A stretch of DNA of 64,000 nucleotides from an uncultured Verrucomicrobia subdivision 3 bacterium. Its GTDB lineage: Bacteria; Verrucomicrobiota; Verrucomicrobiia; Limisphaerales; UBA11358. The stretch is from assembly GCA_903850425.1 (NCBI GenBank), contig CAINLR010000141.1:171296-235295 (forward strand), read 5' to 3'. A program made the translations under genes and the position numbers. The notes under the pieces were generated by a model, which did not search any database, was not told where the DNA came from, and saw only the letters and a list, made by a program, of their open reading frames with translations. Shown here piece by piece: positions 45,700 to 64,000 of the stretch; positions within the stretch are counted from its first letter, which is position 1, and every line of letters begins with the position of its first letter.

Positions 45700-46493
45700 T
45701 GGAGAAACATTCAACATTCAACACTCAACATTCATCGCCCAAGGTTGAAGGCGATGTGCGTTCATTGGATGTTCGAGGTTCGATGTTGAATGTTGAATGT
45801 TTCCCAGCTTCTCAAAACTGGCTTCTGTTGAACTCCGGCCAATGCGCCGCCGCCTTCAACATGGCGCTGGACGAGGCGCTGCTTGAAGCGATGCCGCGGC
45901 TGCAGCAACCAGTCCTGCGTTTTTACGGCTGGACCGAAGCGGCGGCGACCTTCGGCTATTTCCAGAAATATTCCGAGGTCGAACGCGCGACATTGTTGCG
46001 CCCGCTGCTTCGGCGACCGACCGGCGGCGGCCTCGTGCCCCATGCCGCCGACTGGACCTACAGCGCCGTTTTTCCGGCCGGCCACGAATGGCATTCGCTC
46101 AAGGCGGTGGCTAGCTACCGGCGCATCCACGACTGGCTGCGATTGGCATTTGCCGCCTTGAACGTGGCCACGGAACTCGCGCCCAGTTGCAAAAAAACAA
46201 TGCCGGGCCAGTGTTTCGTGGGCCACGAACAGTTTGACCTGCTCTGGCAGGGCAAAAAAATCGCGGGCGCGGCGCAGCGCCGGAACAAACTGGGTTTGCT
46301 GATCCAGGGCTCGGTGCAGCCGCCGTCCCTGGCGTTGGCCCGGGCCGATTGGGAAACCGCGATGGCCACGGTCGCGCAGCAAGATTTCGGGGTCGTTTGG
46401 ACCCATGGTTCGCCGGACGCGGTCCTGCATGAATGTGCGGGGAAACTGGCCTTGCGGAAATACGCTCAAGCGGAATATAGTATGGGCCGATAG
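45699..46493 (+). CDS. Lipoate-protein ligase/octanoyltransferase-like protein
   Basis: This is a member of the BPL/LplA/LipB family, 264 residues from the ATG overlapping the nth stop. Catalytic-core features are 'LLRRPTGGGLVPHAADWTYS' (usual RRTGGGAV-H-D) and the conserved Lys block 'GKKIAGAAQRRNKLGLLIQG'. The family fold starts at about 'SQNWLLLNSGQCAAAFNMAL'. The first 29 codons are made of a palindromic repeat (45706-45801) and are probably dispensable; an ATG at 45783 (MLNVECFPAS) inside the repeat's right arm may be the real start. It likely transfers lipoate, octanoate or a related acyl group to carrier proteins. Which activity applies is not decidable here. Confidence 0.83.
   Translation: MEKHSTFNTQHSSPKVEGDVRSLDVRGSMLNVECFPASQNWLLLNSGQCAAAFNMALDEALLEAMPRLQQPVLRFYGWTEAAATFGYFQKYSEVERATLLRPLLRRPTGGGLVPHAADWTYSAVFPAGHEWHSLKAVASYRRIHDWLRLAFAALNVATELAPSCKKTMPGQCFVGHEQFDLLWQGKKIAGAAQRRNKLGLLIQGSVQPPSLALARADWETAMATVAQQDFGVVWTHGSPDAVLHECAGKLALRKYAQAEYSMGR
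45706..45801. repeat. Palindromic element at the 5' end of the lipoate-ligase-like gene
   Basis: There is an 18-bp perfect inverted repeat: AACATTCAACATTCAACA (45706-45723) and TGTTGAATGTTGAATGTT (45784-45801), with a 60-bp centre. It starts 7 bp after the nth stop and is read through in frame by the following gene. Confidence 0.9.
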
Positions 46494-61134: not shown

Positions 61135-64000
61135 CTATAGCTTCTCCGTCTTTCGCGCCGCGAGAAAATGCAGGGCGCAAAGTGTGACCTTGCGCCCAAA
61201 AACCTGCTCTAGCGCCGCTGCGTAAAGCTGCACTTGCGGCGTGTAGGTTTTGATTTTCTCGGCCAGATCGTCCGCGTGAACGGCGTCGGTCTTGAAATCC
61301 ACCAGCCAGATTTCGTGCGGCAGCAGCACCACCAAATCCGCCGCGCCCTGCACCACGACAAACTCAGTCTCCAGTCCGGCGGCCGTTTTCACGCCGGTGA
61401 TTTTCTCCAACTCGGGCGGGCTGAACCGCGCGGTGAACGGCAGTTCGCGGCGCACGTTTTCGGCGTGGCTGCGAATTTTTTTGCCCAGTTCGGAATCCCA
61501 AAACGCCGCCAGCGCAGCCAAGTCCAAAACCGCGCACTCCGCCGCCGATAAATAATTCTCCTGCCTTAAACGCGCCGCTTCCGCGGCGAGGTCGGCGGTG
61601 GCCCCCAGCGCCACATGCTGGAGAAAGGTGTGGTGCGCCGCGCCGGTTTCCGCTGCGTTCAGTTTGGGATTTTGAATTTTGGATTGGCGATTGCCGGCGG
61701 CGAACCGGGGCCGTTGGAAAGCTGGGGCCGCCTCCTCGGCCCATGCTTCCGCCGCGCGCCGCAGTTCCGTGACCGACGATTTGGCCTTTTGTTTCGTGGC
61801 GGCTAGTTGTGGATATTCCCAGCTCAAAACCGCGTGCAACTTTTCCGCCGCCGCCGCGTCGAGCGCCCGGCTCGCTGGGTGGGAGCCGCCGTGGGGAGGC
61901 GCTAATTTGTTTTGAGTTTGCGCCCCGTCACCTTGGCGGCCACGAACCGATTCGCCGCTCAGTTCGGCGTCGTCCACCAACCGCCAGTGCATCCAAGGCG
62001 TTCTGCCATGGTGGGAATTCGCATTGCCCACATGGGGCGCGAACCACATCCCCAGCCAGTCGGCAAACGAACTTGCCCCCGCAATTTGGGGCCGGGTCAC
62101 CGGTTCCGGCTGCGCCCAGCGCGTCGCCCATTTTTTCTCCGCGAGCGTGGCGGTCAGCACCAGCGTGTCCCGCGCCCGGGTCAGTGCGACGTAAAGCAGG
62201 CGCAGCTCCTCGCCGCGCAGCTCCCGCTTCTGCCGCCGTTGCGCGAGCCAGTGCGGCAAGCTCGGATAACGCCGGCCCGTGTGCGGTGGCTTCACTTTCG
62301 GACAAAGACCGAATTCCTCGTCGAAAATAATTTCGCCGTGCTGATCCTGCTCGTTGAATTTTTTCGAAAGATCCGGCAGCACGACGACGGGAAATTCCAG
62401 ACCCTTGCTTTGATGAATGCTCATCAGCCGCACGGCGTTTTCCGCCGGGACGGCGGGCGTGTCCGGTTCGGTGCCCGCTTCGCGCTGGGCCTCGATGAAT
62501 TTCAGAAACCGGAAAAGTCCCTGCCGCTGAAACTGGTCGAACGACTGCGCGAGATTGAGAAAGCGCTCAATGTTGGCGGCCCGCTGCGCGCCACGCGGCT
62601 GCGCCCGCAGCCAGTCGGCGTAATAGGTTTCGCCCAGCACCGCTTCGAGACATTGCGAGAGCGAAACCTGCCGTGCCAGCTTGCGCCAGCGCGAAAAGCG
62701 TTCGAGAAATTTCGCGGCTTTCTCTCGCAGCTCATTTGTAATTTTTAATTTTTCATTTTGAATTGCATTGAGCGCCGTCCAAAAATGCTTCGCCTTCGCC
62801 GCGAGCCGGATTTCCGCCAACTCATCCAGCGCCAAGCCGACGAGCGGCGAGCGCAGCACCGCGATGCACGGCACGTCGTGCAACGGATTGTCGAGCAATT
62901 GCAGCAGGCTCAAGAGATCCAGAATTTCGCTGCCGTCAAAAAATCCGCCGCGCGTGACGACCAGCGGCACGCCGGCGAGCTCGAATTGTTTGGCGAAAAT
63001 TTCCGCCTTGCCTGACGGCGAACGCAACAGCACCGCGACATCGCGCCACTCGACGGCGCGAAACAATTTCTCTTCGTCATCCCAGATTTCATGTTTCTCC
63101 GCGACGAGTTGCTTCAGGCGCAGCGCGACCAAGCGCGCTTCCTTGTCCGCGTCGGCCAGGTCCGCCAGGTCGTCGTCCGCCGCCACGTCATCGCGACCGG
63201 GCTTGAGTCGCAGCAACAGCTCCACGCGCGGGCTCGGATTTTGGGCCACGCTGAAATCCGCGCGCGTGGCGGGCGAACCGAATCTTAATTTTGCCGCTTC
63301 GTCATACGCCACGCCGCCAACTTCCTCGCGCATCAGCGGGCTGAAAACCGAGTTCGCAAAATCCAGCAAGCCTTCGCGGCTGCGGAAATTTTCTGACAGC
63401 GCGATGACTTGGCCAGTTTCACCACGCCAATCACGGGCGTAAGCGCGGAAAATTTTTGGATCCGCCAGACGAAAACGGTAGATGCTCTGCTTCACGTCGC
63501 CGACGAGGAAGCGGTTGCCGGTAGTGGCACGGGCATCCTGCCCGTGTGATGAGGTTCTTAAACTCTCGGGCGGGCCGCCCGTGCCACGACTTAAAGCGGC
63601 GATGATTTTGTCCTGCGCGGCGTTGATGTCTTGATATTCGTCCACGAAGACAAAGCGCAATTTGTTGCGCCAGATTTCGGCCACGGCGGTGGGTTGGTCG
63701 GCGGTAAAATCCCAAAGCAGTTTGAGCGCGAACTGTTCGAGGTCGTGAAAATCCAACACGCCATCAGCACGTTTGCGTCCGGCAAAATTATTGGCGAATG
63801 CTTGCGCCAGGCGCAGCAAGGTTTCCATGTGGCCGCGAACCCAGCTCCAATCTTCGGCAAGCGGATCGGTTCCATTTTTGACGGTCGCGAGGGCGGCGAG
63901 AAACGCCGCCTCGTCGAAAAAATCTTCCAGCGGCTGGCGCAGAATGGTTTTGCGTTTTGCCGGCCAGTTGCCGTCGGCGGCCAGGATTTGCTCCAGAACT
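61135..64000 (-). CDS. UvrD/AddA-type helicase-nuclease (5' end outside window)
   Basis: The frame is open from base 64000 down to the stop at 61135, giving 954 C-terminal residues. Superfamily 1 helicase motifs are 'FVFVDEYQDINAAQDKIIAA' (DEYQD), 'NRFLVGDVKQSIYRFRLADP', 'IALSENFRS', 'VRLMSIHQSKGLEFPVVVLP' and 'LRLLYVALTRARDTLVLTAT'. The C-terminal RecB-family nuclease appears as 'VVQGAADLVVLLPHEIWLVD' and 'FKTD', with the catalytic Asp and D-F-K. This is the AddA/RecB organisation used in double-strand break repair. About 22 residues between two motifs ('TSSHGQDARATTG') are encoded by a palindromic repeat at 63526-63587. The Walker A part lies outside the window. Confidence 0.92.
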   Translation of the reverse strand, partial: VLEQILAADGNWPAKRKTILRQPLEDFFDEAAFLAALATVKNGTDPLAEDWSWVRGHMETLLRLAQAFANNFAGRKRADGVLDFHDLEQFALKLLWDFTADQPTAVAEIWRNKLRFVFVDEYQDINAAQDKIIAALSRGTGGPPESLRTSSHGQDARATTGNRFLVGDVKQSIYRFRLADPKIFRAYARDWRGETGQVIALSENFRSREGLLDFANSVFSPLMREEVGGVAYDEAAKLRFGSPATRADFSVAQNPSPRVELLLRLKPGRDDVAADDDLADLADADKEARLVALRLKQLVAEKHEIWDDEEKLFRAVEWRDVAVLLRSPSGKAEIFAKQFELAGVPLVVTRGGFFDGSEILDLLSLLQLLDNPLHDVPCIAVLRSPLVGLALDELAEIRLAAKAKHFWTALNAIQNEKLKITNELREKAAKFLERFSRWRKLARQVSLSQCLEAVLGETYYADWLRAQPRGAQRAANIERFLNLAQSFDQFQRQGLFRFLKFIEAQREAGTEPDTPAVPAENAVRLMSIHQSKGLEFPVVVLPDLSKKFNEQDQHGEIIFDEEFGLCPKVKPPHTGRRYPSLPHWLAQRRQKRELRGEELRLLYVALTRARDTLVLTATLAEKKWATRWAQPEPVTRPQIAGASSFADWLGMWFAPHVGNANSHHGRTPWMHWRLVDDAELSGESVRGRQGDGAQTQNKLAPPHGGSHPASRALDAAAAEKLHAVLSWEYPQLAATKQKAKSSVTELRRAAEAWAEEAAPAFQRPRFAAGNRQSKIQNPKLNAAETGAAHHTFLQHVALGATADLAAEAARLRQENYLSAAECAVLDLAALAAFWDSELGKKIRSHAENVRRELPFTARFSPPELEKITGVKTAAGLETEFVVVQGAADLVVLLPHEIWLVDFKTDAVHADDLAEKIKTYTPQVQLYAAALEQVFGRKVTLCALHFLAARKTEKL
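63526..63587. repeat. Palindromic element inserted in frame in the helicase gene
   Basis: Perfect 11-bp arms GTGGCACGGGC (63526-63536) and GCCCGTGCCAC (63577-63587) enclose further self-complementary text (GGGCATCCTGCCC). It lies inside the helicase coding sequence and is translated on the minus strand as '...SLRTSSHGQDARAT...'. Confidence 0.9.

Follow-up and report, generated by a model that had tools for sequence, protein, structure and literature searches.

The palindrome that lies in frame in the addA-like gene of the window, by which we mean the whole 64-kb stretch of DNA that was analysed, is, with a probability of about 0.8, a REPIN tagged with GTAG (a mobile, non-autonomous palindrome of the sort associated with RAYTs, the REP-associated tyrosine transposases) that was inserted by a RAYT and has been kept through tolerance. 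In most descriptions REPs are extragenic elements and RAYTs solitary domesticated genes. In relatives of the organism from which the window comes, REPINs of the addA type are linked to RAYTs. The coordinates of the features discussed are collected in Table 1.

Table 1 Positions of the features discussed (numbering of the window, unless a locus is named)
Feature	Position	Strand	Remarks
addA-like helicase-nuclease gene, C-terminal 954 codons	61135..63999	-	continues beyond window end; full open frame 1234 codons
DEYQD motif, residues 120-124	63628..63642	-	
VGDVKQSIYRFR motif, residues 166-177	63469..63504	-	
REPIN, two REP hairpins inverted	63521..63590	.	70 bp; one end reads GTAG, the opposite end GTCG
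First REP hairpin	63524..63546	+	8-bp perfect stem 63528-63535 / 63539-63546
Second REP hairpin, inverted	63566..63587	-	stem judged by eye
Element-encoded residues 138-159, RGTGGPPESLRTSSHGQDARAT	63523..63588	-	residues 141-159 pLDDT <50
alaS with in-frame RAYT, window's genome	L202:2373-6014		contig C4, about 71.1-74.7 kb
6S RNA (RF00013, 61.4 bits), near alaS in window's genome	L202:957-1135	-	
RAYT loci with REPIN model matches on both flanks	L203, L299, L307, L309, L310, L312, L313, L314, L316, L348, L357		

The palindrome and the AddA loop

The initial annotation described a palindrome with perfect 11-bp arms in frame in an AddA-type gene, and this description holds. The perfect arms are read at 63524-63534 and 63577-63587, and the full element has 24-nt arms that are 83% complementary, with a 22-nt gap. 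Its DNA folds at -23.4 kcal/mol, against -10.83 +/- 2.28 kcal/mol for shuffled sequences (z -5.51), and none of 200 shuffles was as good. By a rough estimate, closely spaced 11-bp arms are not rare across 64 kb; a chance palindrome is ruled out here because the element is a member of a repeat family. It is built, like a GTAG REP or REPIN, of two inverted REP hairpins and a spacer, with the GTAG tetranucleotide at the hairpin foot of one end. Identity with a Rickettsia palindromic element was also considered and is ruled out by the absence of the CGTC tag.

Regarding the host, the protein combines UvrD-type helicase motifs with a C-terminal PDDEXK nuclease (PF00580, PF13361, PF12705), as expected of AddA, and the TIGR02785 model gives 617 bits over residues 57-949 of the partial protein (curated cut-off 707.65). 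The best solved relative is 3u44, with 3u4q and others. On the coding strand the order is DEYQD..AALS-RGTGGPPESLRTSSHGQDARAT-TGNRFL-VGDVKQSIYRFR, in agreement with the earlier placing of the insert between these two motifs, in a frame that stays open and with the later motifs intact.

Orthologues of AddA were sought in 59 genomes, and the best 30 loci, 23 from the genus and 7 from other families, were taken for comparison of the loop between DEYQD and VGDVKQSIYRFR. This loop counts 23 residues in 20 of the 30 orthologues and 19, 22 and 28 residues in one each, and in the remaining seven it is enlarged by inserts, to 41 residues in the window's gene and to 40, 49, 49, 65, 32 and 42 residues in the others. 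All seven inserts occur within the genus (7/23) and none in the AddA proteins of other families (0/7). The residues are thus indeed extra, as had been proposed, and about 22 are encoded by the element; measured against the 23-residue loop, the protein has become 18 and not 22 residues longer, so that about 16 nt of the original loop appear to have been replaced or cut away.

Judged by eye, the inserts fall into at least four dissimilar types: the REPIN, GERAGVRG / PSEGRG, WGETPGEP..GSRGRS and FGVPPLGG..PEGGTP. Repetitiveness was established for the REPIN family, the other types being classed by eye. Folding energies of the inserts range from -0.60 to -0.21 kcal/mol per nt, and those of L030 and L049 fold weakly and are not clearly palindromic. 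Since inserts of at least four dissimilar types are found in 7 of the 23 orthologues of the genus, the loop is, as far as the compared sequences indicate, a tolerated insertion site. The REPIN family model also matches elsewhere in the AddA of G022, G020 and G044, and in the start region in G031.

In an AlphaFold model of AddA based on 25 sequences (mean pLDDT 78.2), residues 137-162 are without secondary structure and the insert is predicted to be disordered (Table 1); the same stretch aligns to a short loop of solved AddA. Both results are in line with the earlier suggestion that the enzyme accepts the insert in a loop. Two more disordered stretches are present in the model, residues 683-713 (61861-61953) and residues 753-777 (61669-61743), the latter containing NRQSKIQNPK, and these may be further inserts.

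With a pseudopilin and a lipoate-ligase case added, three unrelated palindromic families had been proposed to enter coding sequence in the window. This was not borne out for the lipoate-ligase case, an imperfect 39-nt inverted repeat at 45704-45803. It lies between an nth-like ORF and the lipoate-ligase gene and may be extragenic, since it begins just past the end of the preceding ORF (45699) and overlaps only the start of the next gene's frame.

The REPIN family in the window's genome and its relatives

A covariance model of the family was built from 13 copies from several genomes, the addA copy included. The consensus, GTAGTGGCACGGGC..GCCCGTGCCACTAC, forms two inverted hairpins with a variable spacer and GTAG at both ends. 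With this model, the 6.9-Mb genome of the window has at least 17 family places at E 4e-5 or better, with weaker ones beyond; this count is a lower bound, with 150 of 5755 first-look candidates scored. The element is thus repeated in the genome, as REPs and REPINs are, in few copies as compared to the hundreds of classic REPs. One family place falls within the window. When in-frame copies were counted genome-wide, as had been suggested at the outset, five of the 17 places were found in frame and bounded both before and after by 352 or more open codons, namely in addA, an SNF2 helicase gene (C157), putA (C110), a second SNF2-domain gene (C131) and dnaE (C59), and the remaining 12 appear intergenic or ambiguous. 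Among relatives, 10 of 59 genomes match the 81-bp query at E 0.001.

Some of these positions recur in relatives, as judged by eye. The REPIN in dnaE of the window's genome lies at the junction VYFAPA / RIRFGLAAIKGVGE, where G026, G035 and G193 have RAYT units; that in the SNF2 gene on C157 occupies the site of RAYT units in G198 and G292; and that on C131 has the same position as a REPIN in G026. At 11 of 51 RAYT loci (Table 1) the model of the addA family matches both flanks of the RAYT, with E up to 0.01; at the remaining 40 its match falls on a single side or elsewhere, or is absent, and the alaS locus of the window's genome has no match. Searches for Y1_Tnp and RAYT domains, set against the family matches, found no RAYT flanked by this family in the assembly of the window's genome; the three Y1_Tnp places, and a fourth, weak match, are either separated by 6 kb or more from family matches on the same contig or located on other contigs.

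RAYTs within open reading frames

In a congener (G026) three REPIN copies lie within dnaE without interrupting its frame, and a complete RAYT stands in the same frame between the second and the third. A genus search with six such RAYTs as queries in 49 genomes gave 21 RAYT places, each in an open frame 690 codons long or longer, distributed over 16 genomes. The host gene is recognisable in every case: alaS (7), priA (6), clpB (3), dnaE (2), thrS (1), a dinG-like gene (1) and an hsdR-like gene (1). Profiles were run on one example of each host type, and alaS and clpB were also scored genus-wide. Frame length alone was not accepted as proof of nesting. The host gene resumes on both sides of the RAYT in 20 of the 21 places, the RAYT being terminal in the hsdR-like case; a prepilin case (L199 in G020) was discarded because the RAYT frame merely extends into the next gene. 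Patterns of the HUH motif and the catalytic tyrosine were matched in all 21 copies, and NF047646 gave 42 to 77 bits in the 15 nested-RAYT proteins scanned (curated cut-off 80).

In the window's genome itself, the only alaS over the cut-off carries a RAYT, in one frame of 1214 codons that scores 838.6 bits across both halves, and this RAYT is bounded by 43-nt inverted repeats of a different repeat family from the addA REPIN. The same alaS has a 21-bp minisatellite encoding TPSPNVG repeats in a second loop, which is the RAYT site in G013 and G060, and a 6S RNA is found nearby (Table 1). In G006, G014 and G031 the RAYT-bearing clpB is likewise the only one over the cut-off among the matches listed. 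No Hint domain was present in the Pfam tables of eight nested-RAYT proteins and no intron family in Rfam at L202 and L203; neither an intein nor an intron was thus found around the nested RAYTs in these proteins and loci. An in-frame ATG occurs within 60 codons upstream of the RAYT domain in three of nine nested copies, the others having GTG or TTG only, and nested RAYTs may have internal translation starts.

A survey of the order covered 293 genomes, with the best candidates, up to 10 per genome, scored. All 33 matches of at least 265 bits, among them five rows that are the query itself, fall in frames 621 codons long or longer, one of which has an internal TGA. This order-wide rule that strong RAYT matches sit in long frames fails for the whole phylum: among the matches listed there, ten reach 265 bits, of which six lie in frames of at least 954 codons, one in a frame of 594 and three in frames of 275-318. 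Of the order-level loci, 14 of 15 and then 17 of 20 more were translated (in the second set L343, L349 and L355 gave no domain). Among the hosts are dinG-like helicases (seven that share one site), SNF2, dnaE, priA, hsdR-like proteins, DNA methyltransferases and a large unnamed protein, with some RAYTs located at the C-terminal end of the host. The large unnamed protein has an in-frame RAYT in five genomes of the order (L319, L338, L339, L340 and L341). From the phylum matches, many in long frames, ten stretches were inspected, and profiles run on seven of these confirmed that the hosts are ispG, priA, xseA, leuS, carB, valS and hypF, with a REP_Tyr_transpos domain within every one. One case comes from a single-contig genome, in which the only ispG found carries the RAYT. 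The leuS genes of L373, L374 and L379, of the same class, have an in-frame RAYT after what appears to be a single site, AHDERDFEFA.

In a quick tree of 50 RAYT domains, 15 stand-alone copies are separate from the 35 nested ones, which fall into a group of 12 rows and one of 23 (SH-aLRT 99 for both), with two changes between the nested and stand-alone states as compared to a mean of 13.3 after shuffling (0/500 as low). The tree left out loci lacking the HUH search pattern, including the whole L164-L193 set and L320, and since the sample was drawn with nested queries it displays clustering and is no census. Its rows mostly cluster by host gene. In alaS of G013 and G067, hosts are 92% and RAYTs 93% identical, the insertion sites differ, and the synonymous difference is larger in the RAYT (0.694) than in the host (0.355); the same holds for dnaE of G026 and G035 at one site (0.766 against 0.388) and for alaS of G000 and G026 (0.702 against 0.457). 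This excess would suit separate insertions, and faster silent change in the RAYT could also explain it. In priA of G021 and G024, the synonymous difference is smaller in the RAYT (0.199) than in the host (0.536; Fisher 7.3e-9). The tract of low divergence extends into the flanks by about 60 codons, a pattern like that left by gene conversion. No difference between RAYT and host was seen in clpB of G006/G014 or priA of G031/G035. Within nested RAYTs dN/dS is 0.02-0.21 where defined, with synonymous differences often near saturation.

Origin of the insert and comparison with known systems

Most likely, a RAYT that has perhaps since been lost from the window's genome would have pasted the REPIN into addA as hairpin-forming single-stranded DNA. 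The insertion would have survived because the element has no stops in frame, changes the net length by a multiple of three and met a short loop that accepts residues, and harmful insertions were presumably lost. We infer that a RAYT mobilised the element by transposition, that insertions which did harm disappeared and that AddA is affected little if at all. Points against this explanation are that no RAYT flanked by this family was found in the assembly of the window's genome and that one end of the addA copy reads GTCG rather than GTAG; the junctions given for the insert are approximate.

It could be argued instead that a whole RAYT unit once stood in frame in addA and that the REPIN is its scar, the transposase having been deleted between or within the flanking repeats, and the dnaE and SNF2 REPINs, at junctions where relatives have whole RAYT units, give this some appeal. 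We nevertheless hold it to be unlikely, as no RAYT-bearing addA was recognised among the 21 genus copies, the 14 + 17 translated order-level loci and the 10 phylum stretches, and REPINs also lie outside genes in the window's genome. That the insert was kept as useful, as a new surface segment or as an mRNA hairpin that tunes addA expression, would fit with the presence of such inserts in several replication and repair genes and with the speculation, in the available part of PMC3733652, that REPs in repair genes alter activity. The probability of this is very small in our view, given that the insert is predicted to be disordered and that in other species this loop has an insert of a dissimilar kind or no insert, which suits tolerance better than a shared function. 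Hardly any weight can be given to an origin without a mobile element, be it growth of the loop by replication slippage or template switching, or misassembly of the contig. The genome is a draft in 197 contigs and a 21-bp minisatellite and other low-complexity inserts do exist in its genes, but matching copies are found elsewhere in this genome and in ten relatives, the site is interior to a 275-kb contig, and in-frame units of a similar kind are present across many separate assemblies, including one that consists of a single contig.

Beyond insertion of a REPIN in addA, the data invite a wider reading, to which we give even odds: Verrucomicrobiota would carry RAYT lineages that reside in frame in essential genes at fixed sites, form on translation a domain within the host enzyme, with no known splicing device, and are sometimes spread between species by conversion at the site, with the intragenic REPINs of addA, dnaE and SNF2 as their non-autonomous satellites or scars. 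If so, a transposase that is a translated domain in alaS, dnaE, priA, clpB, leuS, carB or ispG would be hard to delete without harm to the host, a strategy otherwise linked with inteins, here without the splicing device. It would also become testable how essential enzymes accept a catalytic domain of 130-180 residues, whether the transposase remains active there, and by what route REPINs like that of AddA enter genes. In the literature searched, supplementary files and most subscription papers aside, no in-frame RAYT inside a host gene was found, and REPIN-flanked whole RAYTs in frame within essential genes are in that sense unreported. They may have been met earlier and set aside, since unexpectedly long proteins were discarded as gene fusions or annotation errors in one study, according to its available part (PMC6006769).

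The AddA insert itself is of an already described sort, since intragenic GTAG REPs are known, with most in the verrucomicrobium O. terrae. The available parts of that work describe intragenic GTAG REPs, inverted REP dimers and a link to RAYTs, with in-frame copies in DNA-repair and tRNA-synthetase genes and with REPs in recB of Xanthomonas that lie at roughly one position (Di Nocera et al. 2013, PMC3733652). The addA REPIN family shares the GTAG tag, the inverted dimers, the RAYT link (in relatives) and the in-frame copies in repair genes; different from what is described there, one loop of AddA has received dissimilar repeats in several members of a genus, and essential genes of relatives have whole in-frame RAYTs. 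REPINs were defined as two inverted REPs acting as one hairpin unit, presumed mobile in trans, and those of Pseudomonas form extragenic populations, as far as the available text describes them (Bertels and Rainey 2011, PMC3116915); the addA family has the same inverted-pair unit, in low copy number and partly intragenic. Rickettsia palindromic elements occur in frame within many protein genes (PMC10969869, PMC3733652), and the accessible portions give them a CGTC tag (PMC3733652) and no known transposase link. Both these elements and the addA family are thus found in frame in genes, the latter with GTAG and, in relatives, a link to RAYTs. Inteins are in-frame passengers at fixed sites in essential genes. 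The nested RAYTs resemble them in being in-frame passengers at fixed sites, in one pair with a conversion-like tract, and differ from them in that the Pfam tables of the eight proteins analysed show no Hint domain and the RAYT seems to stay in the protein.
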